Shown: piece after piece, positions 20,279 to 62,960 of the stretch
Layout of the letters: every line of letters starts with the position of its first letter
How positions within the stretch are numbered: the first letter of the stretch is position 1
From: Ricinus communis
Lineage: Eukaryota; Streptophyta; Magnoliopsida; Malpighiales; Euphorbiaceae
Reading direction: 5' to 3'
DNA length: 64,000 nt
Assembly (NCBI RefSeq): GCF_019578655.1
Contig: NC_063260.1
Location: forward strand, 20,332,723 to 20,396,722
Notes under the pieces: generated by a model
What the model was told of the DNA's origin: nothing
Databases searched by the model: none
What the model saw: the letters and a program-made list of their open reading frames with translations, nothing else
Made by a program: the position numbers and the translations under genes

Positions 20279-23202
20279 TGTCACGACCCCATCCGTGGGC
20301 CCGTGACCAGCACTAGGGAATGGGTAGGCGTAAGGCCACCGAAACCCGTAGTAAGCCTGACACTCATTGACTTAAACAAATCTCATCTCATTTAATGTTA
20401 TTAAAGCCACAAATTATCTTAATAGCTACATTTTATATAATTTAATCGATCTGCCAGAAGAACTAGGCGAGACCCGAAACTCAGAAAATTTATAACTGAT
20501 ACATCTACTATTACTACTGCGGAGAATCTAAGATTTTAAAAATTAACATACCAAATCGAATACACCACCCGATGATGAAGGAGTCGGGTTACTGAATAAG
20601 AGTCGCGAGAGGACTAACAGTCACGAATCTGAAAAACAGTAAATGGAGACTGTCAGTCTCGAGAGTGAGTTAAAATCAAATAATCTGGGAACTATTGCAT
20701 TCTTCTCAGAAAACATAGATTGTTCAAATCAGTATATCAAACATGCACATAAATACCTTTCTTCACAGAAAAATATTGATCATTCGAATCAATATATCAA
20801 CCATGCACGTAAATACAATCCATATTATAATCATACCATAATAAATAAATAAATGAATAAATAAAAATATATTTCTACTTTTACGGGACGAGTGGCTCAG
20901 TAGAACCCTAACCCCAAATTCTAACGTACCATTTTGGCTCTCTTAATCCAATAAGATCATGCCCCCGAGAGCAAAGCTCGACCAGAGACCTTACTTCCAG
21001 TCTGGTCACTTAAGTATCCAAATAAGTCGGCGCCCCGAGAGCAATGCTCGACCAGGGACCTTACCTCCGGCAATTTACACAAATCAGCCCAGAGAGCCAT
21101 GCTCGACCGTGGCAAACCCATAAAAAAAATCCGATTACATGTCCATGATCATTCGCGTCCCGATGTAACCCATCAAAGGCATGTTCTACGAAAGCCACAT
21201 CCCCAAATTGAAATCATCACATATAATAAATATCATTGTATAATGAAATCATTCAACCATATCAAAATAACAATTAACAATTAAGAGTAAGACATCGGGC
21301 AACTCATGTGGAAAATCGATAATATTTGGTATTATCATAACATTACTATAATAATACTTATATTACCTTTAATAATGAATAATTCAAATTGAAATTATTT
21401 ATGTTGCGATACTAATAACCATATTAAGCACGAACTTTCAAAATAGCATATTAAAATCAAACTTAGCAATAGCGCAATGATTAAATGACTTTAACTCGCG
21501 ACCTCCTAGCTCACTCCGGTGCCTCGGTTGGAGCGAGCCGAACAGACAGATCATCTAATCACGGAAAACAATTTATCAAAACGTCAAACAATCGATCATT
21601 AATCCTAGGTCTAGACTCCGCAGGATCGACTGTCTAAGAATCTCGACTCAAGAGAATTCTCACCGAAATCCGGCAGAACCTCCCCTACAACACGAACATT
21701 ACCCCCCGTGAAAACGGGTCCAGGACTGCCGGAAAAACACTCCAAATATCCAACAATTTAAACAACGGAGTCGGGTCCCCAAACTTCACTATTTCCGACC
21801 GCCACACAAAGACAAAATACGAGGCAGACAAACTGACAGACAATTATTTTTGACTCACAAATATCATTAAATAATCAATATAACCCAATAGACACAAATT
21901 TAAAATCAAAGGATTTCCAAGATCAACGGCCAGAGAAAATTATCGAGACGCTCGGTCGACTCGCCTCCGGCCGCCGGAGTCCGATCGACGATCTGGACAC
22001 ACCATCGGACTCACAACGACGCGCTAATGACGATCCCTGCTTCCGTTTTTTGATCTGACACCCGATCATCCGGAGAGATTTGCGGACGATCTCGACTGTC
22101 GATTTGCAAACGGAGCCCGATCGCCACCAAACCGGTGCCATTTCGAAGCTTGAGCTGAGGAGAGTCGGGATACGTCCTCCGATCGTCCATCCTCCGCCGG
22201 AGCTCGCCGGAAAAATCAGAAAATACTGCCACCACTTCGCCGAACTCTCCTCCGGCCACTAAACCGACGCCGGCCAAAGGAAACTCTCCAAGGGAGCCGA
22301 TCGCCACCGAGATCGGCCGGAAAGGTAGGAAGCCATTTCCGCCGACGCCTGCCACCGCCTCCATCGCCACCATCGGGTGGCGTGCACTCCTTCCGACGCC
22401 AACGCCGCCTCTGGCCTCATCCACCATGGACGCCGACGCCCTCTCTCTCCTCCCTTTCTTCCTTTCCTTCTTTCTTTTCTCTCTCCCCGATTTTCTTTCC
22501 TTTCAATATCGACATTAGGCCCCCGAACTTTTCTTTATTACAATTTAGTCCCTCAACTTTCTTAATTACTTACAATTTCATCCTGCAGAATTTCAATTTA
22601 ATCCCTAAACTTCTTTTTAGCCTTTCAATTAAGCCCTTAACTATTTAATTTGGGCCAAAACCGAATTATTGAAAATACACAATTACATAAATACCCCTGA
22701 CCGACATATTTATTTACAAAAATACCAAACTCACAAATTTCCATTAAACCCTCATAAAAATAACATTATACTTTCAATCCTTATTCCAAAATAAATTTTC
22801 AATTAAATCCTACACACAATTAAATTAAATAATCAATTTCCAACTTAAAATTTAATACTACTAATCAATTATAATATCAGTTTTCTCAAAATTCTTTTAT
22901 AAAAACATCCCTTACAATTTCTATCATAATTTTCCAATATATAATTTTATTTATATAAATATGCATTTGGAGAAAATTTGAATAACTAAATAAAAATATA
23001 ATTTATTCCTCAAATAATTTATTTAATTAACTCCTTAAAAAGCAAACTAATTGGATAAGGAAAAAATAACTCATTTATTTGTCTAACATTAACATTCAAA
23101 ATTTGTATTTAAATCATTCCAATTAAACCGAATAAAAATAAAGCTAAAATTAACTTAAATAAAAACTCATTATTAAATATATAAAAAATTTCGGGTGTTA
23201 CA
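20279..23202. mobile_element. 2.9-kb TG...CA repeat, copy 1 (probable solo LTR)
   Basis: It starts TGTCACGACCCC and ends GGGTGTTACA, the TG...CA form of a long terminal repeat, and matches the copy at 49773-52693 over its whole length. Flanks AAACT (left) and CAACT (right) fit a worn 5-bp target duplication. There is no polymerase, integrase or protease frame, so it is either a solo LTR of a retrotransposon with very long LTRs or a non-autonomous unit. The inside is mosaic: a 5' part with hairpin repeats, a GC-rich block rich in CGCCGG at about 21950-22450, then a T/A-rich tail. Orientation and superfamily are not decided. Confidence 0.75.
20965..21112. repeat. Three imperfect repeats with a hairpin core inside the 2.9-kb element
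   Basis: The motif GAGAGCAATGCTCGACC occurs in variant form at about 20967, 21036 and 21091, roughly 55-70 bp apart, the first two followed by a GGGACCTTACCTCC-like segment. Each has the self-complementary core GAGCAATGCTC. The sister element carries the same set at about 50456, 50518 and 50575, so it belongs to the family rather than to one insertion. Confidence 0.75.
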
Positions 23203-32739: not shown

Positions 32740-33390
32740 TAAATTATAAATAATTACTTGTTTATCCGTATATTTTATTTTAATTATAAAATTAAATTTA
32801 TAAATATAATTTAATATTTTAAAAAATAATAATAAACTAACTATTTTTAAATTTTTTAAATTTTTTAAAAATTTTATTAGTATAATAATAAAAATTATAA
32901 AATTTATTTTTTAATTCTAATATTATATAAATTAATACTATCAATATAATTGATATTATTATTTTTAAAATTAAAAATTATTATATAATTAAAAGTTATT
33001 TAGTAGTGAATATAATATTTAAAAATATTATTTTCTATAATTATAATTATTATCTAATTAAAAAATTAATTTGTTAGTTAATATAATATTAAAATATAAT
33101 TAATATACTATTTTTTAGAATAATAATTATCTAATTAAAAATCTAATCATTATCTAATTGAAAAATTAATGTATTATTAATATGTTATTTTTTAAGATTA
33201 GAATGAATGTTTAAATAGAAATGTAATTTATTAATTAATAACTTAATAAAAATAAATCACAAAATTACACATCAGCTTGAATTTCATATGTTAAAAGTAA
33301 GTACACGTGTTAAAATAAAAATTTTATGTATTAAAAATTAAACATGCATATCAAAAATACTTTAGGTCACAGAAATATATATATATAAAT
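32740..33390 (+). repeat. Dispersed AT-rich repeat, copy 1 of 3
   Basis: This stretch follows the same order of words as 46290-46960 and 62410-62960: AAATTTATA...AATTTAAT, ATTTTATTAGT, TAATATTATATAAATTAA, TTGATATT(A/G)TTAT, a series of TTATCTAATTA-like units, then AAAATTACACAT and a TTTCATATGTTAAAA-like tail. All three lie in the same orientation. The family is unknown; no ends or target duplication could be fixed. Low sequence complexity lowers certainty, but the shared order of non-trivial words is hard to explain by composition alone. Confidence 0.6.
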
Positions 33391-34262: not shown

Positions 34263-36326
34263 TTAGAAAACACTGTCATAGTCATCGTCATCCATAGGTT
34301 GAGAATCTTGCATGATGGCATCCTTCTGTTCATTGGTCAGATCCGAATCATCTAGTGGAGTTGGAAGTATAGGAAAAATGGAATGTTCAATAATGGGATG
34401 TTCAGTCTCAGTCCATAGATGTCCATTGTAAGTGCAGACTAATGGTGTAGAGACATCGGTCGTCCCTAACTCATTTCTTAGGTGCAGAGCCTGCTTTAGA
34501 TCTCTTGTAATTATTGGAGGAGCAAGATGCAAAGACACTTCAATCGACCTCCAATAATGACAGATGTTTTGAGTTGCATAAGTGTCTTTTGAGATCTGAA
34601 GGTAAGGCCTGTGGAGGATGAAAATGGCATGATATCCTGAAGCCTTGGGATTATTGTCTGTAAATAATCTGTTCTCATGAATAACCTTGAGAAGTTCCCT
34701 TCTCCATTGGTACGGGGTTTTGAACCAAGTAAGGTATCTCCATGGATATGTTCCAGAATTTGTCTCATTATTGAAGAAGTGTAAAAGATCCATAATGGGT
34801 ATTTCAATAGCATGATAACAAACTGTAGAAAGGCACCATAAAAACCACAATTCACTTTTAATCTGTGGATGGGTAGGAGAAAGGTGATAAAGGAGACACC
34901 AAGGGTAGTCTGGGTAAAAGAAGTTGGGTTGAATGGGTAGTGAGAAAGTTTGTTGGAAAGTTGCCAAATAATGAAACATCATATTTCTGGCAAAATCAGT
35001 GACTTGTCTGGTTGTGAGGTTGGCGGGAAGATCTGGTGGAGAGGGAGGTTGCAGAGTTGGTTTTGAGGACGAAGAGGCCATGAAAATTATAGGGAGATTG
35101 ATTGTTGAGGTGAGGAGGACTATAGGTTGATTTTGTGACTTTGAGAGTCTGGATAAGAAATCTGGAATGAGATTTCTCATCCCTTTTATATGCTGGACTT
35201 CAAAATCATACCTGCTGAACCATGATTTTAACCTCAATAATTGAGGCTCTGGTAAGGTCTTTTGGTGGGATTCAAGGATTTTTGGGAAAGAAGAATTATC
35301 CATCCGAACCAGGAAGTGCTGTCTAATCAGAAAAAACTTGAACTTCTTTATCCCGTATTTGACTGCCAAGATCTCCTTGTAGGTTGTGTGGTAATGTTTT
35401 TCTGAAGAAGAAAACTGTCCTGATGAGTAACCACACAGTTGTTCTTTGCCATTGAGATTTTCAAGGAAGATGGCCCCCCACCCATAATCAGACGCATCTG
35501 TCTGAAGGATAAGATCTCTTGTGGATGGGATAGTGAGAGATGGAGGATTGTGGGCAAACTCTTTTAGTTTTCGGACAGCTGTAGTCTGCTCTGTTCCCCA
35601 AGGATGAGGGTCCTTTTTGAGCATCTTAGAAATATGACATGTGTAATTGGACATGTGTGGTATGGCTTCTATGACATAATTGAGAATCCCAAGGAACTGT
35701 TGAATTTGCTTTACTGAGAGATTCTCTTCTGGGAAGTAATCAAGCTCCTTTGTCAGATGCAGACTATACGTGTATTGGCCGTTTTTGAAATGCATGCCAA
35801 GAAACTCTATCTCTTGTTGGCCAATAAGACTCTTTTTCTCTGACAGCGTGATGTTATATTTTTGAATAATAGCGAGGAACTGTTTTAGGAGTTGATGATG
35901 TTCCTCAGCTGTTTTCGAGAATAGTAGAATGTCATCAATGTAGATCAAAGAGGAGTAAAGGATAGGCCCAAAGATTTCTATCATGGTCTTTTGAAATTGT
36001 GAAGGAGCCGTTTTGAGCCCAAAAGGCATGACTGTCCATTGATACTGGGCATTTGGGATACAAAAGGATGTTTTGTATCTTTCTGAGGGCTGGATACCTA
36101 ATTGCCAAAAGCCCGCTTTGAGGTCAAATTTGGAATAGAACTGGGCCTTTTGGATATGGACTTTAAGGTTCGAAATTCGAGGGAGAGGGAATTTGTTATC
36201 TTGAAAGAAATGGTTTAAAGGCTTGTAATCTATAACAAGTCTCTTTTTCTCTCGTAACTTCTCAGAGCTTTTTTCCACATAAAAGGCTTGACAGGCCCAT
36301 TGTGAGGTTGTGGGCTCAATAAGGCC
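34263..36326 (-). pseudogene. Pararetrovirus reverse transcriptase-RNase H with C-terminal extension
   Basis: The longest open part of the viral polyprotein (671 codons from 36278). Reverse transcriptase motifs are clear: LVIDYKPLN, FDLKAGFWQL, MPFGLKTAPSQFQ and the catalytic YIDD at about 35932-35943. RNase H follows with LQTDASDYGWGA, YKEILAV and the LIPDFLSRL end. After it the same frame runs another 270 or so residues with an in-frame Met at 35081 (MASSSSKP); this part has no motif that I know. A stop at 36327-36329 separates it from the protease side. Frame and order match 36819-37250 upstream. Confidence 0.88.
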
Positions 36327-36329
36327 TTA

Positions 36330-37597
36330 TTGTAACAGAGTCGAGCATTCTGATCTGGCAAGAGCTAGATCTGTAGGAGACATTCCTAGATGTGTGGCCT
36401 TTGTAGGGTTGATATCTTCATTGAGTTTGAAAGGGAGGCTGATGTAGAACTGGAGATTTTTCCATAAGGGAAGAGGATGTTGGAAATGTGAATGGGATTC
36501 TGGACAAAAGAGAAGGAATTTCTCTGTGTATTGTAAAAATGGTGGACCTGTATCTGCTATAGTGAACATATTAGAGGTCTCTGTGTATGGACGAAATTAC
36601 CTCTTGAATTTTATACTATTGGGAAGAATCTGGAGCTTCTGAGCCTGATGATAAACATCAAACCCTATCAGGAGGTCTTTGCTTGGAAGATCTGAACCGA
36701 TAATATGCGTCCATACCACGCAATCAGAAAAAAACTGTATCCCGATTTTCTACTTTATGATTAGAGTAGTCTTGAAGGTTTGACCATTTGCTGCTCTGAA
36801 AAACTGATCATGAGGCTTCTAGTATTCAGATGGAAGGACTTCGGGATTCATCATGCTTCTTTGAGCTCCAGTGTCAAAGAAAGCTATAACTGAAACAGGT
36901 TTTGCATATTTTGAAGGCAAAACTTGTATAGGAACATAGGAGACTGGACGAATTTTGGTTGCAAGCTGAGATAACTCAGGAAATGGATATGGAGAGAAGG
37001 AATACTGCATTACATCTCTCAAGATATCTTCTTCTCTTTCTCCTCTCAAAGAGAGACTGATCATTAAGATTGGGATCTCGTTGTCAACCGAGTCTGAAGA
37101 GGACTCTTCTGAGGATTTAGTGGAGTCTGAATATTCTGCCTCGATCCTAAAGAGACTCTCTGAAGTAAGATTATCTTGTTCTGATAGAAGCGACTCTATA
37201 TCCTCTTCAAATGAGTCTGGAAGAGACATAGACATGCTGACTTGTATCATCCTTGCTGATTTTTCCGAATTCTGAGGACAATTCTTAGCATAGTGTCCCT
37301 TTCTTCTGCAGATATAGCATCTGTCAGATTTGTGGCCTTGATTCCGCTTTTTTTTTGAAAATATATGAACCCTTTTGAGCGCGTCTTTCTTTCTCTGAAT
37401 TCTTTGTTTCTGCGCGGGTATTTTTGAAAATGATGCCCGATCTTCTTTTTATGATTGGAGCAGACGCAGTTTGAGGCCTTGCATTTAATCTTGAGATGAT
37501 TTTCGTTATAGGCCTTTTGAACAATCAAGTCCCGTTGAGATAACCTTTTGAATAATTCTTGCTGATCACATAATCTCTTAATGGAAGAGAGAGTGAA
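36330..37597 (-). pseudogene. Pararetrovirus zinc finger and aspartic protease, broken
   Basis: A CCHC knuckle of form CYIC-x4-GH-x4-C is coded at about 37278-37319, after a lysine/arginine-rich stretch. The aspartic protease shows FFDTGAQRS, its catalytic Asp-Thr-Gly at about 36864-36875. Frame changes from that of the capsid region to that of the finger at a homopolymer run near 37350-37358, so a one-base slip is likely. Further stops fall in frame at 36819 and at about 36755 and 36590. The link between protease and polymerase is at 36330-36600. The breaks are all consistent with neutral decay. Confidence 0.8.
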
Positions 37598-39238
37598 TTA
37601 CCAAATCTCTCCAAGTGTGATGGAGGTGACTGGTTTCTTTGTTGCAGCAATCATGTTGTTGACCTTTGGTTGTATTTCATCTGGTAATAAGGTGATGAAA
37701 GTATACTTTAACGTATCATCACCATCATGCCCTCCAATGACATAATACAGTTTTGACATAGTAGAATAATGTCTTTCCAGATCCTTTATTTTTAACGAAC
37801 AACATTTTCGGTCAAAGTATTCTTGTTTTTTTTGTCGTATAACAAGATCATAACTTCCAAGGAATTGATTATGGAGGACTGTGACCGCAGCTGAAGGAGT
37901 TGGTAGTGTCACAAATTGGAGCCTGGTGTACTCAGACTGTGACTGAAACCAATCTCTTAAACTTCTTGTGAATCTCGTGACAAATTCAGCAAGAACTTTT
38001 TTGAGTGTAGCTCCATCAAGGGTCATTTGGAGATCAATCCATGCTAAAAACTCGGAAAGCTTATCTTTCCATTTTGATGGAGGCAGATTATCAAAGGAGA
38101 ACCAAGGTCCCGTGCCAGTTGTTGGTTTTGACCTTGGGTATGGAGCTCTAGTGGGAGCAAAAAATGACTGTGTATCCTCATCCTTAGGTTCCACTACTTC
38201 TGGGCTGGGTTCAGTGGTAGAGGTATTCATCAGAATTTCTGTGATATCAACAATCTCTGAGGTGTTTGAGGAAGAATCAGAATCATAAGGACTGATGAGT
38301 GATTGGTCTGGTAGTTTTTCTTTAGAGACTGGAGGAGGAGATATTTTCTTTTGCTGGGTTACGGAGTCTTTTGGGTAAAGATGAGAGAAAGTGCCAAAAG
38401 GTTGGTAGAGAGTTTCTTGTTGTTCTGGCTGTGGGAGGAAAGAAAATGCAGAATAATATGAGGGAGCAATAACAGAAGATGTAGAGGTTGCTGATGTAAA
38501 AGATGAAACTGTAGAAGACTGGTCTCTTCGAAGATCATGTTCAATCTGATCAATTTGTCTTTTAAGCCTTGTAATCTCCTTTTCCTTCTGGATGAAGGCT
38601 GGAGTGATCGGCTGAGGAACTCGAAGCTCTTTATCCAGAGCTTGATATCTGGCAGTGAGAGATGAATAGAGTTGGAGTACTTCCTGAGAGAAGGTGTCCA
38701 ACTTTTGGTTCAGCTTGTGAGCCAAGTGTAGAGCCTGATCCAGCTTTCCATCTATTTTCTTTAGATAGGAATTATGGACTATAGAATTTGAGGTCTGCCA
38801 ATTCAGAACCTCTTCTGGTGGAGTGAGGGGCTCTATAGATCCGGAAGGAGTAATCCTTGAGGGAAGGATTTCCGATCTTTTATTCTCAGTCTTCCCTAGA
38901 GGAGGAAAATCTTCTGGCTGGAACATAAAACAGCTTTGGATTGTATGGGGTGGTTGTACTGCCGGTAAATCAGACTGAATTTCTTTTTTACAAGTTGCAG
39001 GAGAACTTTTTTTAAACTTAACTCCCAATTGGGCCAAAAGTGCCTTCATTTCATCAAAAGTGATGTCAAGGACAGTCTTTCCTTCTTTTGCAAGAAGATC
39101 TAAGGCTTCCTTAAATATTGGGAGAGGAGCTTTGCTCTGATTTTCTTTTTGTCTCTTGTGGATGCCAATCCGAGGACCGTCTGGATCCTGGTCATCCGAC
39201 CTTGGGTCCATGATTGAACATGGAGTCTCTGGAGTCAT
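37598..39238 (-). pseudogene. Pararetrovirus capsid (Gag-like) region
   Basis: An open frame of 546 codons in the same frame as the movement region. The N-terminal half is polar with a heptad-like stretch near LAHKLNQKLDTFSQEVLQL and an acidic, Ser-rich section. The C-terminal 200 residues resemble retroviral-type capsids of caulimovirids (SLRDWFQSQSEYTRLQF, QKKQEYFDRKCCSLKIKDLE, YTFITLLPDEIQPKV). It ends at a stop just before the basic/zinc-finger part. A movement-region stop at 39263-39265 lies only 24 bases upstream in the same frame, so it is unclear whether the virus had one polyprotein or two. Confidence 0.8.
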
Positions 39239-39262
39239 ATTTCTTGGATCTTTCCTAGAATG

Positions 39263-40429
39263 CTAAAAACATGGTTCAGCAAAATCGAGATCATCTCCAC
39301 AAGTGCATCCTGATTGGCACATTCCTGGGTCAACATCCCAGATGAAGTGTCCTTTTATTCTGGCAGCATAGATCTGATGTCCAGAGGACTGGAATGAGTG
39401 GATAGGGATCTTCTCCCTAGGTCTATATACAGACTGTATCATTGATGCTTGGAAGATAGAAGGTGCAGAAGAAGATTCTCCTGTCTTTGTAAAGATCGTA
39501 TTTACCGTACCATCTTTTTGATTGACAAAAAGAGGGTCGGTGGCTTGAACAGGCTTCGCCCGAGATGCCTGAAGCTTTTCATAGTTGGTCACCCATTCAG
39601 TTAGGATCAGCTTCTGCAAATCTTCCTTTTCCAGCTGCCTTGGGGCCTGAACTATTGTAGGAATCTGGCCAGAGTCAGCCATAATGAATAAAGCATCAGA
39701 GGAGGCTTGAAAGCCTGGAATTTGGAGATTAAAGGCATGATCTTGTAATCTGTAGACTATCTGATGGTGCAGGATCGCAGAGAGAGCATCGGTCACTTGA
39801 TTTGCTCCCGTGATCTGGACTTGGACCTTGAGTGCAGTTGACAGATAGGGATCGTGGAGAGATAGATTAAAATTGGGGAAGAAAGTCAAAATAACACTCC
39901 CAGTGTTAAGTGTTGTGACTATCGTGCCAATTACTGCATGTTCGTACTTAGGATATTTGGTGTCCAGCAGCGACATACGGGCCGTAACCGATAGACCCAT
40001 CCTGCCATGATATGAGAGGACTAGTTTGACAGCTCCGAGATGGAGATGCGTATATCCCTGTTTCCTCCATTATTCTATGAAGGAAATTGGGATCTCAAGA
40101 GTGACATACTGCTCTTTAGTGGTAGAAGTAAGAGAACATTGTGAAAGAGAGGAAGATTGAACATATTCTTTTACGGATAAGGGTTGTTTGTAGATGATTT
40201 AGTTGAAGGTTTTTCTGACAAAATTCTGTTTTTTGAAAATATTATATGGGTTAATAATACGTACAAGAGTGTTTTCAATTTGGACATTCTCAGGAATATG
40301 AGAAATCTTCACAAGATGATCAATCTTATTGGATATGGTTTTTCTGCAGGAAGGAGAGAGTTGTAGGGTAGAGGTGTGAGTAATGATTTCTGAAGTCATG
40401 ATAGTTGGATTTCTCTTCTCTGTCACCAT
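39263..40429 (-). pseudogene. Pararetrovirus movement protein region, two in-frame stops
   Basis: Starts with an ATG (MVTEKRNPT) that directly follows the tRNA-Met primer site. The core shows the pattern of caulimovirid movement proteins (30K superfamily), which guide virions through plasmodesmata: ALKVQVQITGANQVTDALS and HQIVYRLQDHAFNLQIPG. Stops break the frame at 40199-40201 and at about 40071. The C-terminal part has CQSGCTCGDD. Assignment is by motif pattern and position, not by an alignment. Confidence 0.78.
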
Positions 40430-46289: not shown

Positions 46290-46960
46290 TTAGTTATTGT
46301 AATTATTTTGATCATAAATAATAATATTAATTAAATCAGTAGGTAAAATTTAATATATTTTTTAATATTTATAATTATTATAATATTTTAAAATATAATA
46401 ATAAACTAAATAGTTTTAAGTGTTTTGTTAATATTTTTAATATCTTACAATTTTATTAGTGGAATAGTCTAAAAGTTATTTAAAAGTATTTATTAATTGA
46501 TTTATAATATTATATAAATTAAGACTATAAATGTTAATTGATATTGTTATTTTCTTAATATTATAAATTGTTGTATAATTATAAATTTAATTTATTAGTT
46601 AATTTAATATTAAAAATATTACTTATAATGTTATTTTTTACAATTAAAATTATTGTCTAATTAGGACTAATTCATTAGTTGACATAATATTTAAAAATAT
46701 AATTAAAACACAATATTTTAGGATTAGAATTATTATTTAATTGAAAATATATTTATTAATTAATAAATAATAAAAAAATTATAAAATTACACATAAACTT
46801 AAATTTTATGTGTAAAATTTAAATATACATATTAAGATAAAAAATATCATGTGTCAAAATAAAGTGACAAATTTCAAAATATTTTTATATGTCAAAATCT
46901 AATATATTTTGTAAAATTTTTCAAATGAATGTGTGAATTTGTTAAAGAATAATAAAAAAA
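46290..46960 (+). repeat. Dispersed AT-rich repeat, copy 2 of 3
   Basis: Same word order as the copies at 32740 and 62410, including ATTTTATTAGTGG, TAATATTATATAAATTAA, AAAATTACACATAAA and TTTTATGTGT. It begins right beside the Mutator-like element. Confidence 0.6.
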
Positions 46961-47293: not shown

Positions 47294-47584
47294 TATGTCT
47301 ACTTCACTCATTTATTTCCATCATCTTCAACAAAAGATTCTACTCCAATCATCACTCAAGTGCTAGTTTCATGCCCTTGGGGGAGAAAACGAGGATCTCT
47401 AACAAGTTAAACACATAGTTATTAAATGGTAATTGGTGATCGGGAAGTAGATAAAAGCCCAAAAGATGGTTTTTTTTTTTTTTTGGTTATGTTTATGGTG
47501 ATCTTAAAGAAGAAGGAATAAACTTCTGAGAAGCCTTAGTGTTGACAAGGTTTTGCTTTTTCTAATCCAATTATAATGTTTAAG
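47294..47584. repeat. Left copy of the host segment flanking the Copia element
   Basis: A 291-bp stretch from TATGTCTACTTCACTC to TATAATGTTTAAG recurs as 55445-55746 on the other side of the Copia element. I count three base changes plus one 12-bp insertion and poly-T length change between the two. It shows no similarity to the element itself. Confidence 0.95.
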
Positions 47585-47842
47585 TGAAGAAGTTTGTATA
47601 AATTTGTATTGATAAAACAATGATGAGTATGTTACAAATTCTGAGTTTATTTACAACTGATGAAGAGTTTATATTGATGCTTGTATATGTCCAACGGCTA
47701 TTTTTCTGAGAGGGGAAAGGTAGAACAGGAAAGGTTGCTCCCTTTCACCCTTGGTCAGTGATGAGAAGCCTGCACAAGCAATCCAGCTTGTGCAGTCTCT
47801 GAGGCCATGCCTTCCATGTCCCTCTTTCTGTTTTCTTTAACA
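47585..47842 (-). repeat. Copia 3' LTR (complete)
   Basis: 258 bp, from TGTTAAAGAAAACAG to CTTCTTCA on the - strand, preceded by the purine-rich GCTTGAGAGGGAG. It differs from the 5' LTR at three or four bases and lacks one arm of a hairpin present there. Confidence 0.9.
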
Positions 47843-49772
47843 CTCCCTCTCAAGCTGGGTTCATATAGATTTATTGAACCCATCTTGCTGAGAATGGACT
47901 TATGACTCTGCTTGTCCAGGGCTTTTGTAAATATGTCTGCCAATTGATCTTGACTCTTGACGTAAGGAGTTTCAATTTCTCCTTTTTGAACCTTTTCTCG
48001 GATGAAATGGCGATTGACTTGATGTGCTTGGTCCTTTCATGAAACACTGGGTTTGATGCTATGTGCCGAGCGGCGTGATTGTCACAAAACATTTTCATAG
48101 GCTCCATCGTTTCTACTTTCATGTCCTTGAGTACTTGCTTTACCCAAATGAGTTCGCTAGCCGTGGATGCCATCGCACGATATTCTGCTTCGGCGCTTGA
48201 TCTAGCAACTACGCTATGTTTTTTGCTTTTCCATGTCACCAAGTTTCCCCCGACGAATATACAGAATCCAGTGGTTGACTTTCTATCACAACTTCCAGCC
48301 CAATCCGCATATGAGAAACCAACTACATTAGTGGAGCTATTTTTCTTCATCCAGATTCCCTGTCCGGGTGTTCCTTTTAGATATCTGAGGATCCGATCAA
48401 TGGCTTCAAGGTGGCTGGTACGAGGAGCATGCATAAACTGACTTATCACACTAACTGCAAAAGAAATGTCAGGTCTAGTGACAGTTAAATAAATTAATTT
48501 CCCTACTAAACGCTGATAGTGTCCTATGTTGGTCAAAGGATCTTCGTCTTCTAAATTGAGTTTAGTTTTAGTTTCCATTGGAGAGAGAGCAGGTTTGGTT
48601 CCTATCTTGCCAGTTTCCTTTAATAGATCAAGGGTATATTTTCTTTGGGATAGAAATAAACCTTTGCTGGACTTTGCTATTTCTATGCCTAGAAAGTATG
48701 ACAACTGACCTAGATTTTTAATGTCAAATTCCCTTTTGAGACATTGTTTGACATTTTCTATCTCTCGATTATCACTCCCAGTTATTATGATGTCATCAAC
48801 ATATACCAAAATAATAATGGTGTGTGTGCGAGTGTGTCTAACGAACATGGAAGAATCAGAATCACACTTATTGAAATTGATACTTAATAGAAAATAGCTG
48901 AGTTTAGCATACCATGCCCTTGGAGATTGTTTCAGACCATAAATTGCTTTCTTGAGCTTACATACCAGAGATAAGTCTGAGTTTGTCTTATACCCAGGAG
49001 GAATGGCCATGTAAACTTCTTCTGCTAAGTTTCCTTAAAGGAAGGCGTTCTTGACATCCATTTGGAATAGATTCCAACCTTGATTAATTGCTACTGAGAG
49101 TAGGATCTTAACCGTGTTAATCTTGGCCACTGGAGCGAAGGTCTCTTGATAATCAACTCCGTAAGTTTGAGTGAAGCCTCGGGCTACGAGTCTGGCCTTG
49201 TACCTGTCAATAGTTCCGTCACTATTGTGTTTGATCTTGTATACCCATTTGCACCCCACTGGTTTTTTATTTGGTGGAAGAGAGACAACGCTCCATGTAT
49301 CATTCTTTTCCAGGGCTAGAAGTTCTTCTTCCATAGCTTTACACCATTTAGGATCGACATTGGCTTCGTAGAAGTTTGTAGGTTTGAAATGATTGGAGAG
49401 CTGAGATAGATAATTGCGATATTGGTTAGACACAACATTATATGAAATAAAATTCTGAATGGGGTACGTCACCGTATGAGACACATAGTCTCTAAATTTC
49501 ACAGGTGGTCTGGTTTGTCGACTGGAACGTCTCAAGGCAGTTACTTCCTCTGAGACTTCGTGAAATGAAGCTTCTTGTTCTTGTGAGTGGTTATCTCCCC
49601 CTGAAGGAATGTGCCTTGAGATGTCAGGTGGTTGTTCTGGGAGTGGACTGTGATCAAAGCTGTTAAGAGAAATATCAGAGTTAAGCGGAAAAAGAGAATG
49701 AAATTCAGCACCGGTAGGGTTGGTATAATAGGACTCATTCTCGAGAAAAGTGACATCCCGAGAGACATAGGT
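47755..49772 (-). pseudogene. Copia reverse transcriptase and RNase H
   Basis: Reverse transcriptase motifs: WVYKIKHNSDGTIDRYKARL, GVDYQETFAPVAK, FQMDVKNAFL, AIYGLKQSPRAW and the catalytic YVDD in LVYVDDIIITG. RNase H shows YADWAGSCDRKSTTG, SSAEAEYRA and the final ADIFTKAL. One in-frame stop lies at 49035-49037 just after NAFL, and a frameshift falls near 48010-48030, after HERTKHI. The frame ends inside the 3' LTR, as is usual. The N-terminal part of this block was cut from the integrase by the insertion at 49773. Confidence 0.92.
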
Positions 49773-52693
49773 TGTCACGACCCCACTCGTGGGCCCGTGA
49801 CCGGCACTAGGGAATGGGTAGGCTTAAGGCCACCGAAACCCGTAGTAAGCCTGACACTCACTAATTTAAACAAATCTCATCTCAAATTAATATTATTAAA
49901 GCCACAATTTATCTTAATAGTTACACTCTACATAAATACTTCGGTCTGCCAGATAAACTAGGCGAGACCCGAAGCTCAGAAAATTTACAACTGATACATC
50001 TACTATTACTACTGCGGAGAATCTAAGATTTACCAATTTACATACCAAATCAAATACATCACCCGATGATGAAGGTCAGATTCTTGAATAAGAGTCGCGG
50101 GAGAACTAAGAGTCACGAATCCGAAAAAAATATAAATGGAGACTCGGTCTAGAGTGAGTTAAAATCAAATAATCTAGGGACTATTGCTTCTTCTCGGAAA
50201 ACATAGATTATTCAAATCGATATCAAACCATACTATAATCATACCCTACTATTTCCTTCACATAAAATATTAATGATTCGAATCAAAATATCAACCATGC
50301 ACGTAAATACAATCCATATTATAATCATACCACAATAAATTAATAAATGAATAAATAAAAATATATTTTTACTTTTACGGGACGAGTGGCTCAAGAGAAC
50401 CCTAACCCCAATTCTAATAGCCTTTCGGCTCTCTTAATCCAACAGTCCGGCGCCCCAGAGAGCAAGCTCGATCAGGTCCTTACCTCCGACTGAACACTTG
50501 AATTCCAAATAAGCCGCCCAGAGAGCATCGCTCGATCGGGGACCTTAACTCCTAGTAATCAATCGAACTCGGCCCAGAGCAATGCTCGATCAGGCGACAA
50601 ATCCATAATAATCTTATATCCATGATCATTACCGGCAAGACGCTAGTCCCGATGTAACCCATCAAAGTGGCATGTTCTACAAGCCATGTTTCCCAAGACA
50701 CAATCATCCATTTAATAAATATCATTGTATAATGAAGTCATTCAACCATATCAAATTAATGATTAACAATTAAGAGTAAAACATCGGAAAATTTCGGTGG
50801 AAAATCGATAATATTTGGAATTATTATAACATTACTATAATAATACTCATATTATCTTCAATAATTAATAATCCAGTAAAATTAATTACGTTGAGAAATT
50901 AGTAACCATGTTAAACATAAACTTCCAAAATAGCATATTAAAATCAGACTTAGCAATAGTACAATGATTAAATGACTTTAACTCACAGAATTGGGCGACC
51001 TCCTAGCTCTGCTCCGGTGCCTCGGTAGGAGCGAGCCGAACAGACAGATCATCTAATCACGGAAAATAATTTATCAATACGCTGAGACAATCGATCATTA
51101 ATCCTAGGTCTAGACTCCTAGGACTGACTGTCTAAGAATCTCGACTCGGGAGAATTCTACCGAAAATCCGGCAGAACCTCCCCTACAACATGAACATTAC
51201 CCCTCGTAAAAACGGGTCCAGGACCTGCTAGAAGAACACTTCAAATACTTAACGATTCAAACAACGGGAGTCGGGTCCCCAAACTTCACTATTTCCCGAC
51301 TCCGCCACACAGCACAAAATACGACTATGGCAGGCCAACTGACAGACAAATATTTATGACTCATAAAAATCATCAAATACTCAATATAAACCATTAGACA
51401 CAATTAAACCAAGAATTTTTTAAAATTAACGGGCCAAAGAAAATTACCGAGACGCTCGATCGCTCGGTCGACTCGCCTCCGGCCGCCGGAGTCCGATCGA
51501 CGACCAGGACACACCATCGGACTCACAACGACGCGCTGACGACGATCCTCGCTTTCGATTTTCCGATCTGACACTCGATCGTCCGGAGAGATTTGCGGAC
51601 GATCTCGACCGTCGATTCGCAAACGAAGCCCGATCGCCACGAAACCAGTGCCATCGCGAAGCTTGAGCTGAGGAGAGTCGGGATACGTCCTCCGATCATC
51701 CATCCTCCACCGGAGCTCGCCGGAAAAGCCAAAAAACGCGGCTGCCTCCACTTGTGAACTCTCTCCTCCGACCACCAAAACCGGCCGGCCGCCAAAAGGA
51801 AGCTCTCCAAGGGGAGTTGATCGCCACCGAGATCGGTCGAACGACGGCCGCCACACGCCGCGCGATTCCGCCTCGCCGCTGCTGCTGCCGAAGCCGCTCT
51901 ACAGATCGACGCCAACTACCGACGACGCAAGACCCGGCCTCTCCTTCTTCTCGCGCGACGCCCGCTTTTTCTCTCTCTTCCTCTCTTCTTCCCCGATTTC
52001 TTTCCCTTCAATATCGACATTTGACCCCTGAACTTTTTCTTATTACAATTTGGTCCCTCAACTTTCTTAATTACTTACAATTTCATCCTACAGAATTGCA
52101 ATTTAACCCCCAAACTTCTTTTTAGCCTTTCAATTAAGCCCCTAACTATTTAATTTGGGCCAAATCCGAATTATTGAAAATACACAATTACAAAAATACC
52201 CCTGACCGACATATTTATTTACAAAAATACCAAGCTCACAAATTTCCATTAAAACCCCATAAAAATAACATTATACTTTCAATCCTTATTCCAAAATAAA
52301 TTTCCAATTTAGTCCTAACACACAATTAAATTAAATAATCAATTTCCAACTTAAAATTTAATACTACTAATCAATTATAATACCAATTTTTCCAAAATTC
52401 TTTTATAAAAACATCCTTTATAATTTCTTCCAAAATTTTCCAATATATAATTTTACTTATATAAATATGCATTTGGGAAAATTTGGATAACCAAAATATA
52501 ATCATTTCTCAAATAATTTACTTGAATAATTTCTTAAAATTTCAAACTAATTGGGTATAGAAAATAACTCATTTATTTGATTAATATTAAATTTTTCATT
52601 AAATCATTTCAAATTAAACCCAATAATAATGAAGCTAAAATTAACTTAAATAAAAACTCATTATTAAATATATAAAAAATTCCGGGTGTTACA
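49773..52693. mobile_element. 2.9-kb TG...CA repeat, copy 2, inserted in the Copia element
   Basis: Starts TGTCACGACCCC and ends GGGTGTTACA, 2921 bp, flanked by a perfect 5-bp duplication TAGGT (49768-49772 and 52694-52698). This fixes the ends and shows LTR-retrotransposon-type integration. It matches the element at 20279-23202 throughout, with scattered base changes and small indels, roughly nine in ten bases alike where compared by eye. No polymerase genes are inside, so a solo LTR is the simplest reading. It interrupts the Copia coding region between integrase and reverse transcriptase and is therefore the younger of the two. Confidence 0.85.
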
Positions 52694-54173
52694 TAGGTCT
52701 TGTGAGTCAACGGGTCATAGCACTTGTACCCTTTTTAGGTGGAGGAATATCCGAGGAAAAAGGTCCTGACCGAGCACTTGTCTAGTTTGTGATGGCGAGT
52801 GACGTGCACATAGCACACGCATCCAAAGACTCGAAGGTGACCTAAATCGATTTTCCGACCTTTGAGAATTTCCAAGGGACTCATATTTTTTAAGGTGACT
52901 GAGGGAAGTCTATTAATAAGATAGGTAGCAGTCAGGAGGGCATCCGACGAAAAAGATGAGGGAACATTATGTTGAAATAGGAGAGTACGGGTGACATTGA
53001 GGAGATGGCGATTCTTTCGCTCAGAGACTCTGTTTTGTTCGGGTGTATTGACACAGGTAGTTTGGTGAGTAATGCCATGTTGTTTAAAAAAGGTCGAAAA
53101 ATTTTGATTGATGTACTCTGTACCATTATCGGAGCGAAAAAATTTTATATGAGCATTATACTGATTTTTGATAAAATAGTAAAATTCTTGGAATCGAGAG
53201 AAGACTTCGTTTTTGCCTTTTAACAAATAGAGTCATGTAGTTCGGGAATAATCATCAATAAAAGTAATAAAATATCGAAAATGATTGTATGAGGTAACGG
53301 GGGCAGGTCCCCAAACATCGGAATGTATTAATTCAAAAGGTTTTTCAGACATGCTTGAAGATAATGAAAAAGGAAGCCGTGTGTGTTTGAAAAATTTACA
53401 TACATCACAGTGGCTAGAATCCAAGTTAAAACAAAATAATTTATTGAGAACATGGTCGGAGGGATGCCCTAATCTTCGATGCATAAGCATGTCTTGGGGG
53501 GTTTTGGACACTAGACATTGCTGGAAGGATCAGAAAGACAGTATAGGCCATTTTCTAGGTGTCCCTTACCAATCGTCTTCCCGGAAATTCGATCCTGAAA
53601 AAACACTGAGGATGGTGAGAAAATAACATTACAATTTAAATCGCGAGTGATTTTTCCAACAGATAACATGTTAGATTTAAATTCTGGTAAGAATAAAATA
53701 TTCGAAAGAGATGAATTAAATAAGTTTGAGGTGCCAAAACCCTGAATTTTAACTTGATTTCCATTGGCACATCACATGCTCGAATCTCGCTCGTAAATTT
53801 TCTTTAATTTTGCAGGATTCCAAGTCATGTGATCAGTAGCACCTGAGTCAATAATCCAGTCATGTTGATTAGATGCAGTATTATTTTTAAGTGACTGAGA
53901 ATTAAATTGAACCGAACCTGACCCATCGGGTTGAGAAAATCCAAACTCGTGGGGTTGCTGGGCCAAGGCTTGGAGCTGGGCCACAATGTCTTGAATTTGG
54001 GCTTGGCGGGCCTGCTGAGAGGAGGGTAGATGGGCCTGAGGCAGATGGGGCCGCCCTTGAGGACATATAAGCCAGGCCTGGGCCGAGCCCAGAAGAGAGG
54101 AGCGGGCCTGGATCAGCATAGGGCCGGGTTGAGCTACTGGGCCGGACTTCTGAGTAGGGTCGGTGGAGCCCAA
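52694..54173 (-). pseudogene. Copia protease and integrase
   Basis: The aspartic protease shows WIIDSGATDHM (about 53830-53865). The integrase has its HHCC finger (HRRLGHPSDH...CDVCKFFKH) followed by a DDE core: HSDVWGP, FRSDNGTEY and NTPEQNRVSERKN. Frame changes separate protease from gag and from integrase. In-frame stops lie at 53233 (after DDYSRTT) and 52735 (after FFLGYSST). The last codons before the insertion rejoin the frame at 49772 on the other side. Confidence 0.9.
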
Positions 54174-55098
54174 TATGTCCGGGTCTGGTCTCGGGTCGGG
54201 GCGTCATATAACTTTCAGCATATGACGCCCCCGCACGCACACCTCTTCGCCTAGGGTTTTCTTTCTCTCCAAATTTTCTGCCTCCTTTCCTCCACGCCGC
54301 CGAGCCTTCCCACCCCCGTGCTGGTCGCAGCTGAGGGTGGAGGTGCCAGACCATCACGCCGGTGACCGCTGCTGCTGGTCGCGGCTCGATGGCGCCGACC
54401 TCCCTTCCGTCGATCGGTCGCGTGGAGTAGGCTCTGTTGTCGGTGGTCTCTGGAATCTCGTTCATAGAGTTCCTTCTTGTTTCCTCACGCTGAATTGAGG
54501 CTATTATGGCTTCGATCGATGGTAGTTGAGGAGCGAGCAGGATCTGCGATCGCAAGCCCTCGAAGCTTGAATCCAGACGCCTCAAGTATGTGTAGATGAG
54601 ATCTTGTTCCGCTCTCCTCTGTAGTTCTTCCAAATCGTTTGATGGTGGGAGGTAGTTTTGTAACTCCTCCCACCTGGTTAGAATTTCTGTTGAATATTCG
54701 GTTGAGCTTTTGGTCCCTTGAGCAATCTGAGACAGTTCTTGCTTTAATTTGAATATATGTGCAAAGTTGTTTTGGTGGCCGTAGAGAGTCTTTATTTTTT
54801 CCCATATTGCTCTCGATGTCTCCATAAGGATACATAACCGAGCTATTTTGCTGTCCATTGCGTTGGTGAGCATGGACATGACCAAATGGTCAGATGATGG
54901 CCACTCTTCTAGTTTTTCTAATTCTTCTTTTGTTGGTGCTTCTGGAATTGCTGGCTTTGGCTTTTGTTTGTTGCCTGTGATGAATCCAATTTTTTTTCTG
55001 GCACTGAGGGCGATAAAGATGGATTTTGACCACTCAAAATAGTTGTGACTGCCCTACAGCACAATATTGGTGATTTTGGTGGTTTCATTGTGAGCCAT
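53902..55098 (-). pseudogene. Copia gag
   Basis: Starts at 55098 (MAHNETTKI), has a stop after 14 codons (55054-55056), then stays open from about 54900. Recognisable Copia gag patterns: WPSSDHLVMSMLTNAMD, ARLCILMETSRAIWEKI, IFKLKQELSQIAQGTKSSTE and a Pro/Arg-rich tail. The usual CCHC zinc knuckle was not found, perhaps lost to decay or a frameshift near 54100-54250. Confidence 0.85.
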
Positions 55099-55168
55099 GA
55101 TTTGAGTGTTGAGCTGTGATTTTTTTTTTTTTTTTTGTGGCTGGGTAGGTGATGACTGGCTTAAACCA

Positions 55169-55180
55169 GCTCTGATACCA
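55169..55180 (-). promoter_or_regulatory. tRNA-Met primer site of the Copia element
   Basis: TGGTATCAGAGC on the - strand, directly inside the 5' LTR; the typical Copia primer site. Confidence 0.93.
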
Positions 55181-55445
55181 TGAAGAAGTTTGTATAAATT
55201 TGTATTGATAAAACAGTGATGAGTATGTTACAAATTCTGAGTTTATTTACAACTGATGAAGAGTTTATATTGATGCTTGTATATGTCCAACGACTATTTT
55301 TCTGAGAGGGGAAAGGTAGAAGTGACCTTTCTTGCTTTGCAAGAAAGGTCGCTCCCTTTCACCCTTGGTCAGTGATGAGAAGCCTGCACAAGTAATCCAG
55401 CTTGTGCAGTCTCTGAGGCCATGCCTTCCATGTCCCTCTTTCTGT
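55181..55445 (-). repeat. Copia 5' LTR, lacking its outermost bases
   Basis: Matches the 3' LTR from CAGAAAGAGGG to CTTCTTCA but lacks about the first 12 bases (TGTTAAAGAAAA), so it does not begin with TG. It has a perfect hairpin at 55324-55350 (12-bp arms, TTT loop) whose outer part is missing in the other LTR. Confidence 0.9.
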
Positions 55446-55746
55446 ATGTCTACTTCACTCATTTATTTCCATCATCTTCAACAAAAGATTCTACTCCAAT
55501 CATCACTCAAGTGCTAGTTTCATGCCCTTGGGGGAGAAAAAGAGGATCTTTAACAAGTTAAACACAAAGTTAAACACATAGTTATTAAATGGTAATTGGT
55601 GATCGGGAAGTAGATAAAAGCCCAAAAGATGGTTTTTTTGTTTTTTTGTTATGTTTATGGTGATATTAAAGAAGAAGGAATAAACTTCTGAGAAGCCTTA
55701 GTGTTGACAAGGTTTTGCTTTTTCTAATCCAATTATAATGTTTAAG
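55445..55746. repeat. Right copy of the host segment flanking the Copia element
   Basis: 302 bp equal to 47294-47584 except for three base changes, a 12-bp internal duplication (AAACACAAAGTT-type) and a broken poly-T run. Base 55445 fits both the LTR and the host segment, so one base of overlap lies at the join. Confidence 0.95.
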
Positions 55747-58700
55747 CAAAGAGGGAGTCAATTGCTTTTGGCTCTTTTACTATCGTATTATCTATTTGGT
55801 GTGAATTTTTACCAATTCCTTCTCCATTCTGCATGAACTCACTTTTCTTTTCTTATACCTAGCCACAACATAGAAGCGAGCAATTAGCTTATTCCTTTTG
55901 TTTTTTCTTTTTTCTTCTTTTTGGCGCTCTGAAACATGCATCTATTTTTTTTCTTCATATCTAATTGTCATTTGGAAAAGAATTTGTTCTTGCTTTCTTG
56001 TCTCTCGAATAGATAGTTATGAAAAGACTTGACGTTAAAAATTTCCTTTCTTCATCAATAACCCATCTAAACTTTATCCTTTTTCTCCACATGCACCTGA
56101 ACTTTTGAAGGGCTTTTATGATATTCAAGCCCGTCTCCATCTCCCATTCATGTTAAAATAACATGCTGATAAAAAATTTGACAACTATACAAGAATCCGT
56201 ATTAACAATCTGATAAGTTTGTACGAGTTCCACTGTTGGTCCTGTTGGTAATGGCAGATAGACCTGTAGTACTAGTGTTCAAGCCTAGTTTGTCTTGCCT
56301 CCTAATGGCTACTGCTTTAGGATGTCGATTGTACAATAAATATCATCAGGCTTATATTTGTTGCTTTAATATCACATAATTTTGATATTCTGAGGCATGG
56401 CCCAGTTCCGCACCATACATTTGATTTTATGTTCATTCTGAATTGTCACTCTACTCTACCTCTTAGGATGCATGTGGTGAAGCGAGAGATTCAGCCAGAC
56501 GTTCGGTAGATTAGTTATATTGATGCGGTTGATGATAGATCGCTGCCACTGTCGCTTTCTATGTTCCCTGAAAATAATGATCGTAGGTTTCTAAATGTAG
56601 TGAAACCTGAAACGTGGCTAGGGATATTGTAGAATATTGACATTGAATGAAGTGATTGTGAAATAGATGTTTAGAACGATAATTCACTGGTATTTGTTTC
56701 TATCCTTCTTTATATTTCTACTCCGTGACATTACAAATTGGTAACTTGATAGTGATTTTGTAACTAATATCTTTCATCAATTTTAACAACGCTGGATGAC
56801 AGCATTTAGATAGTGTCATTATCTAATATTTCTTTTATCAATTTTGTAAGAATTTCACAAGATTATATTATTTTTTATTTTTATAAATAACTGATATAAA
56901 TGTAAAATAGAAATATCAGAAAGATAAAAAAATAAAATTTATATTCTATATTAATATTACTATAAATTGAATTATATATAATATAAAATAAATAAAATAA
57001 TCATGTAATAATATGAGCAAATTGCTAGCTTATGACATAGATAATAGAAATTCATAAAATTATTTACGTTATAAGGTAGATTAATTGTTTCTCTGATCTA
57101 CTTGGAGAATTAGAAGATGGGGCCTCTTTGACAGAGTCAACACCGTTAGAAGGCAATCATCTCATCTGGTTTCTATAATTTGAGAGCAGCGATTGAGCTT
57201 GTCGGGTTCGATATGATGGAGAGCTTAGAAAGGTTAACTTTCACATTTTCTTAGGTTATCGTTCTAATATATATCTGTAATATATATGAGTGTCAAGGTA
57301 GTCGTCGTGGTTCCAGCTGCTTCCATGTTTTACTCCATCAAGCCCTCCATTATTGTTATGCTTTAGATTGGAACAGATACCTTTCGGCTTTGCTTTATGT
57401 TGTGGGTCCTTGGTAAGAAAGGAAAACACAATATCAACTTCCAATGTAATTGAACGTGGTGAGACAGAGGGAATTAATTGTGTCTCTTTTCAGACTGCTA
57501 ATCACCAAAAACTGATTGCTTCCATGTAATTAAATTGAATTTTGGCATGCAGGAAGAGACTTGTGTCCTTGCATAGAATGACAGGATAAAGTGGTAGTTG
57601 AGCTACGTTTCTGCATGATCAGGAATCCAGCATGTCTGCAAACAAAACTTAACTATAATGTGATTATGAATAAATCTCTTTTCCATGAGCTTTGGGTCTA
57701 CACAAGGAGTAATGTGCCAGAAATTTCTTGTTCTTTTTTGCATGTTACGGAAAGCTGCTAAAGATTTTCAAGAAAAGGGTCTGCATCAGCACTGGCAGAC
57801 AAGATGAAGATATTAGGTCTAAAAGGCTCAAAATTTTCTCTCAATCAATAATGGAGATTGTAAATAAAGCATATTCATTTTATCTCTTGTAGTTAATTGT
57901 TATTTTGGAGTTTTTTAATTCTGTAACAACTGACAATTAATGTTGAGTGAGAATGTTCTCTAGCTGTTGCTACTAATTATTCAGATAAATTCAATGAAAA
58001 TAACCAAAATCACTAATCAAGATCAATTAACTTGGCCATGTAAAGCACTTTGAAGTGTCCCGTAATATTGCGATGAGATTTTCTGCAGCGCTTTCCTATT
58101 GATAATGAGAGAGGCATCTCACTCACTCACTCACGCACTCACAAGTGTAAAGGAGTCGAATCATCTGGAGAGAAAAGGAAAAAAAGAGGAAGGGAAAGTG
58201 GAGCAATTTGCATGAGGAAATGGCTTGGCTGGGGCTCTCTACTTGTTTTGGCTTTTAATTTTGAAGATATAGAAAAGGAAAGGGTATCTTATATTGAAAG
58301 TTACATATAGAAACCTTCAACCTTGTCTGCCTTATGGCCGACCCGACGATTGCCAAAAGATTGTAATGTTGATTATTTACAATTATTATTTCTTTTGGTG
58401 CAAGATATATATGAATTTCATTATGGGGATTCTTTTGTTTATCTCTATTGATATTATTTCTTATGTGAAATCATACACCAAAGAGCAAAACACAATTCAA
58501 TTAGTTGAATCCCCATAAATTGTAGTCAGTCCATTTGTTGGTGATGTCTAATTAGAGATATTAAGATTATTCAGGAGTCCCATTTAACAATTTAAGTCTT
58601 TAGATGGTATAATATTTTGACAAGGTATTAGAGTTAGCTTTTATAATCATAAGATTTTAAAATCTGATAATTTGTCAATCTCTTTTTATCAATTAAACAT

Positions 58701-62409: not shown

Positions 62410-62960
62410 CATTGCTGTTATTTTATTTATAAAATTAAATTTATAGATAAAATTTAATAATTTTTAATATTTATTTATAATATTTTAGAATAATTTCAAG
62501 ATTAAATATTTTAAAATATTTTTAATATTTCAAAATTTTATTAGTGTGATAATATAAAATTAAAATAATTACTAATTGATTTTAATATTATATAAATTAA
62601 TATTATCAGTATAATTGATATTATTATATTTCAAAATTATAATATTAAAAATATTTATTTTTTAGAATTCAAAACATTATCTGATTAGGAAATTGATCTA
62701 TTAATGTATATAGTATTAAAATATAATTAAAATGTTATTTTTTAGTATCGGAATATTATTTAATTAGAAATATAATTTATTTATTAATAAAATCATAAAA
62801 TTACACATAAATTTCAATTTCATGTGTTGAAAATAAATATACATACGTATCAAAGTAAAAACACCTATATAAAAGAATTTTATATCTCAGAAATTAGTAT
62901 ATGGATATATTGAATCAATTCATCTTAAAATAGTTTCATAAAACAAAAAAATTTCCTTTT
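62410..62960 (+). repeat. Dispersed AT-rich repeat, copy 3 of 3
   Basis: Shares AAATTAAATTTATA, ATTTTATTAGTGTGATAAT, TAATATTATATAAATTAATA, TATAATTGATATTATTAT, AAAATTACACATAAATTT and TTTCATGTGTT with the copies at 32740 and 46290, in the same order and orientation. Confidence 0.6.

Follow-up and report, generated by a model that had tools for sequence, protein, structure and literature searches.

The window analysed here is a 64,000-nt stretch of Ricinus communis DNA (contig NC_063260.1), and all coordinates are positions within it. Between 47585 and 55445 it contains a minus-strand LTR retrotransposon (Table 1), along whose coding strand the Pfam domains Retrotran_gag_2/3, gag_pre-integrs, SH3_retrovirus (with rve below cut-off) and RVT_2 follow one another. 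The gene order is that of a Copia element (gag, integrase, reverse transcriptase). One short stretch is recognised, on our reading, as the polypurine tract, and another we assign, presumably correctly, to a primer binding site for initiator tRNA-Met; with these, the set of TG...CA LTRs, primer binding site and polypurine tract is full for the 3' LTR, and the 5' LTR is without its TG end. Judged by its predicted proteins, the element is a Ty1/Copia LTR retrotransposon, and it is the insertion event that is abnormal: in place of the 5-bp target site duplication (TSD) of a Copia element, there is a direct-orientation repeat of host DNA, 291 bp long on the left (47294-47584) and 302 bp long on the right (55445-55746).

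The coding strand of the element is interrupted by stops and frame changes. The gag frame matches Retrotran_gag_2 (1.6e-12) and Retrotran_gag_3 (2.1e-08), and the frame that overlaps it carries DSGAT, which we take to be the protease motif, together with a match to Pol_BBD (0.00098) below cut-off. In the integrase region, the matches are to gag_pre-integrs (7e-07), SH3_retrovirus (3.7e-13) and rve (5.7e-06, under the curated cut-off). Neither protease nor RNase H was found above any Pfam cut-off in the Copia frames, and a Pfam search of 47758-48036, the expected RNase H region, found no family. The best-scoring protein for the reverse transcriptase part is another Ricinus sequence (91% identity over 76%). 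Among viral contigs, an exact scan with 29 bases of the LTR start gave 0 matches, and a protein-guided scan gave 29 pattern-matching stretches and 0 confirmed relatives.

Table 1. Features of the Copia element and of the host DNA on either side of it (strand and positions as in the window; sequences in element orientation unless they belong to the host)
Feature	Position	Strand	Details
Left host copy	47295..47584	+	290 bp; 291 bp with the T at 47294, which is paired with the T at 55445
3' LTR (left in window)	47585..47842	-	258 bp; both termini whole, TGTTAAAG...CTTCTTCA; internally 18 bp shorter
RT C-terminal part and expected RNase H region	47758..49034	-	RVT_2 3e-41 on 47874-49034; frame change
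Polypurine tract (presumed)	47843..47851	-	GAGAGGGAG; abuts U3 start
RT N-terminal frame	49038..49823	-	RVT_2 1.6e-28 at end of frame; first codons inside nested LTR
Nested solo LTR	49773..52693	.	Later insertion inside the Copia element; perfect 5-bp TSD TAGGT
Integrase region	52738..53529	-	Zinc-finger part 53236-53529, core/SH3 part 52738-53232, stop between
gag and overlapping frame	53775..55053	-	gag 53905-55053; second frame 53775-54203 with DSGAT
Primer binding site (presumed)	55169..55180	-	TGGTATCAGAGC; adjoins LTR directly
5' LTR (right in window)	55181..55445	-	265 bp; without outermost 11 U3 bases
Right host copy	55446..55746	+	301 bp; runs on into flank CAAAGAGGG, absent after left copy

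The solo LTR nested in the Copia element belongs to one large LTR family (~2.9 kb) with a second solo LTR at 20279-23202, which is 84% identical to it and is flanked by AAACT and CAACT, alike in four of five bases. Since both have TSDs of about 5 bp, ordinary insertions exist in the same window. Elsewhere in the window, gene frames at the left end match auxin response factor 6 of Ricinus (XP_002532983.2, 100% over 99% of the query), and a minus-strand region at 34266-40069, with RVT_1 and RNase H frames (34266-36326) and a CCHC zinc knuckle (36822-37448), looks like an endogenous pararetrovirus or a Gypsy-like element. Three diverged copies of an extremely A+T-rich repeat of ~400 bp (32792-33158, 46362-46764 and 62433-62845) are ~69-75% identical and have a G+C content of 6-10%.

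In a BLAST self-comparison of the window, the two host copies align over 47294-47590 and 55445-55752 in direct orientation (E ~1e-134) and abut the element directly on the left and on the right. The T at 55445 can be assigned to the LTR or to the host, and the copies are 290 and 301 bp long if it is left out. The host segment has no third match in the window at E values up to 1e-5 and, as expected, none in the phage collection. Beside the LTR ends stand TTAAG on the left and ATGTC on the right; because these pentamers differ, there is no 5-bp TSD at the Copia element. ATGTC is the opening of the host segment itself, and TTAAG terminates both host copies. The geometry of the duplication is that of a normal TSD with the joining points ~290 instead of 5 bp apart. 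A first-pass annotation of this DNA had described a host duplication of about 300 bp in place of the TSD, made up of 291- and 302-bp copies directly abutting the LTR ends. Our self-comparison confirms the duplication, the lengths are right if the ambiguous T at the left edges is counted, and the abutment stands; the outer edge of the right LTR, by contrast, is not complete.

The two ends of the element are indeed unequal. The LTRs align over 47585-47831 and 55181-55445 in direct orientation (E ~1e-107). The outer U5 end, on the left, is exact and closes at CTTCTTCA. The outer U3 end, on the right in the 5' LTR, is short by the 11 bases TGTTAAAGAAA, which include the terminal TG (12 bases, if the A shared with the flank is counted as host). 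The whole U3 start is nevertheless kept inside the element, where the 3' LTR opens with TGTTAAAGAAAACAGAAAG straight after the polypurine tract; the 5' LTR opens only at ACAGAAAG, with its A possibly host, and closes with CTTCTTCA against the primer binding site. The lengths are consistent with this reading (258 + 18 = 276 = 265 + 11). Two of the three relatives fetched are long enough for a comparison at the U3 start, the third (P0051) stopping short of it; beside the polypurine tract, P0001 reads RGSVKE and P0002 reads RGSVEK. Because these relatives encode the 11 missing bases, the bases are genuine element sequence, and we rejected the idea that they are an insertion in the left LTR. At the U3 junction, LTR and host overlap by 1 bp, which is at chance level, since at least 1 bp was shared in 45% of simulated junctions (P 0.45). 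The break sits at a purine run, AAAGAAAA; the surrounding region is purine-rich anyway, and we do not count this as evidence.

A second difference between the LTRs is the 18-bp stretch present in the right one. Within the right LTR, 55322-55352 form a near-perfect hairpin with a 14-pair stem (z -5.8), the counterpart in the left LTR lying at ~47714-47742, and the translated tail of the Ricinus relative P0001 appears, by eye, to carry the stretch. Because the longer LTR has a hairpin there and P0001 appears to keep the stretch, it is probably the left LTR that lost the 18 bp.

Both pairs were recounted between exact borders, a count that the first-pass annotation had proposed. The LTRs differ by 5 substitutions in 247 compared bases, all of them transitions, and by the one 18-bp indel, and the host copies by 4 substitutions in 289 compared bases (one within a poly-T run) and by two indels, one of 1 bp in the poly-T run and one of 12 bp. 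The latter is the biggest difference between the host copies: the 12-mer AAGTTAAACACA is present as a tandem pair in the right copy (55555-55578) and singly in the left. The earlier estimates, three or four differences between the LTRs and about three between the host copies, were therefore slightly low, and the former omitted the indel. Per site, the differences are 0.020 for the LTRs and 0.014 for the flanks (Fisher p 0.74; p 0.48 with the poly-T site dropped and the denominator set by hand at 282). The two divergences are indistinguishable, which allows a single event, and the counts are too few to prove equal age; of the earlier suggestion that duplication and insertion seem equally old, the likeness of the divergences stands and the equal age is not provable from such small counts. 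Insertion ages calculated from a rate of 1.3e-8 per site per year are not relied on here. It is plausible that the duplication was made at the time of insertion. The LTR pair and the flank pair, if made together, would be two clocks for one event.

In words at least, it would be simple for a Copia element to come to lie between two host copies by inserting precisely where the units of an older tandem duplication of the host segment meet. The first-pass annotation had raised this alternative, and long "pseudo-TSDs" arising through segmental duplication have been discussed for HERV-K (PMC5488345). Such an insertion predicts that U3 is complete at its outer end and that TTAAG follows on the right, and neither is found; it also needs a chance deletion that stopped exactly at the edge of the repeat. 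The unequal ends argue against an older tandem junction and are in line with aberrant retroviral integration. With the U3 end short and the 5-bp TSD missing, we rejected this alternative as very improbable.

We consider uncoordinated one-end integration, half the work of integrase and half that of host repair, to be the best account of the locus, and probably the correct one. The locus has one normal terminus, one truncated terminus and a host duplication far above the normal TSD. Copia integrase would have inserted the cDNA by its intact U5 end, making the joint to one host strand at 47584/47585. The U3 end, 11 bases short and with the terminal TG/CA pair missing, would have been defective, such that concerted joining 5 bp away did not take place; instead, it may have been joined to the opposite strand ~290 bp upstream, at 47294/47295, either through host repair or by an independent, late joining. 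Fill-in or copying of the ~290-nt stretch would then have left one host copy on each side. Nuclease trimming may account for the short U3 end, or plus-strand synthesis may have begun within U3 itself, a few bases in, at the purine run; alternate polypurine tracts have reportedly been described in RSV by Oh et al. in 2006. A short 5' LTR beside a whole U3 start in the 3' LTR is predicted equally by such mispriming and by trimming of the finished cDNA. We infer that integrase acted at the U5 end, that U3 was short before insertion, and that the two joints were made in a single event. The exact U5 end is not proof of integrase action, because the primer binding site abuts the LTR and the end of an unprocessed cDNA would look identical.

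For the same reason, the cDNA could have been captured with no part played by integrase, a finished linear molecule being ligated into a double-strand break with a stagger of ~290 nt (or one that was resected and refilled), with one end trimmed by 11 bases. The final structure would be identical; the U5 end of the cDNA, flush with the LTR where the primer binding site abuts, would need no processing by integrase; and break repair in rice is reported with insertions of 10-1000 bp that include tandem duplications (PMC7407515). Against this, an unrelated break with a long stagger would be required, and one terminus would have to be kept without the change of a single base. In Tf1, moreover, insertion independent of integrase leads mostly into homologous element sequence and yields tandems (PMC12786077), and the flanks here are dissimilar to this Copia element: self-comparison within the window found no BLAST match of the flanks to it and no adjoining tandem copy, the features of integrase-independent (Rad52/SSA) insertion. 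We regard capture by this route as unlikely. The first-pass annotation had favoured the capture of linear cDNA at a staggered break that was then filled in, and the geometry of that proposal, with joints ~290 bp apart and fill-in or copying between them, survives; passive capture is not the best fit to a pair of asymmetric ends.

Two further alternatives bear on the host copies. The element could have been inserted normally with a TTAAG TSD and broken subsequently at its right junction, the end of the right flank then copying ~290 bp upstream from a sister chromatid or a homologous empty chromosome and being end-joined to the LTR minus 11 bases. Such a later repair predicts that TTAAG closes both host copies, as found, and the flank divergence is nominally slightly under that of the LTRs (4/289 against 5/247). 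TTAAG in both places is, however, also given by the other models, the gap between the divergences is not significant by either form of the test, and two independent events would be required at one site; this makes a later repair, in our estimation, distinctly unlikely. We give a similarly low probability to an assembly artefact, in which a haplotype with the insertion (left) was spliced to an empty haplotype (right) such that the host segment was printed twice. Copies ~1.4% apart, with indels, are allele-like. The window sequence contains no N, though, the splice would have had to fall by accident 11 bases from the end of the LTR, and the host copies have diverged to about the same degree as the element's two LTRs.

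If one-end integration is the correct reading, the castor genome preserves, as a natural fossil, a reaction known to us from descriptions of retroviruses, for the most part in culture, under drugs or with mutations, and the locus suggests that Copia integrase, too, can act on a single end, after which host repair duplicates hundreds of bases. Without disturbance, one-end events appear to be rare, since unperturbed HIV vector controls had aberrant proviruses in 0/99 and 0/85 cases (PMC5041404), and the evidence here is a single locus. Loci with long duplications are probably missing from a survey of plant elements, because elements were filtered for a TSD and those with TSDs of 4-6 bp were analysed (PMC6911290). 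A search rule for such loci follows from the structure described here: an LTR minus a few terminal bases, abutted by a direct host repeat of 50-1000 bp. A more general reading, which we consider unlikely, is that plant LTR retrotransposons are regularly diverted into an integration that is half integrase and half host by errors of reverse transcription at the U3 end, where the plus strand is primed from a purine-rich stretch within U3. Elements with one shortened LTR end and a host duplication of 50-1000 bp would then form a hidden class, missed by surveys of 4-6 bp TSDs and scored as "truncated" or "no TSD".

In full-text searches of CC-licensed PMC articles, the titles and abstract openings of the matches listed showed no such duplication at an LTR retrotransposon of a plant, which is weak evidence of absence, since subscription journals lie mostly outside that collection and the searches were not always plant-specific. 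In the portions drawn on here, PMC11899658, PMC6097286, PMC4812662 and PMC8090852 hold no closer precedent, the last giving median TSDs of 23-26 bp for somatic insertions of three Drosophila LTR elements, values that its authors hold to be uncertain. The nearest plant system is patch-mediated repair in rice, which, like the castor locus, involves insertions of 10-1000 bp that include tandem and partially tandem duplications; unlike that locus, it has no central LTR element with one intact terminus among the cases described in the relevant part of the source (PMC7407515). Asymmetrical nicks are the hypothesised cause of the duplications made by inaccurate break repair in rice (Vaughn and Bennetzen, 2014, as cited in PMC7407515).

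Long TSDs at natural germline insertions of LTR elements are known from HERV-K (HML-2), with lengths of 100-250 bp, and up to 450 bp inferred elsewhere. Two of them measure 250 bp, at 7p21.2, and 111 bp, at 6p25.2, and Table 2 of that study has eight loci above 10 bp, from 451 TSDs inferred at 622 sites (PMC5488345). Unlike the Ricinus element, these are animal retroviruses, their pre-integration alleles were sequenced, and the sections of the study used here mention no lost U3 end (PMC5488345).

The closest likeness is to one-end integration of retroviruses. Proviruses of HIV-1 and ASLV/RSV integrated in this manner combine, as here, a normal end, an often truncated end and a long host duplication (PMC5041404). 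In most aberrant HIV proviruses one end is normal and the other "often, but not always, truncated", and the commonest change to the host is a duplication; these "could be hundreds or thousands of bp long" (PMC5041404). The ASLV work traces such events to a viral DNA end that is a poor substrate for integrase, and in HIV and ASLV alike an end that integrase cannot use is inserted by host enzymes (PMC5041404). Short homology at the aberrant junction is usual in such integrations, not constant. Drugs, mutations of integrase or changes to the viral ends had provoked the retroviral cases (PMC5041404); the castor case is natural and concerns a plant retrotransposon. Among 15 XMRV proviruses, 13 have a 4-bp duplication, one a 5-bp duplication and one, clone C-3, a duplication of 273 bp beside a damaged U3 end, the left LTR having lost 5 bp that include the conserved CA (PMC2857682). 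C-3 differs from the castor locus in that XMRV is a gammaretrovirus, integrated in cultured human cells, with a normal TSD of 4 bp and 5 rather than 11 bases lost (PMC2857682), and it is nearly identical in kind. The Ricinus locus adds a plant Copia case to a type of event that is already known.
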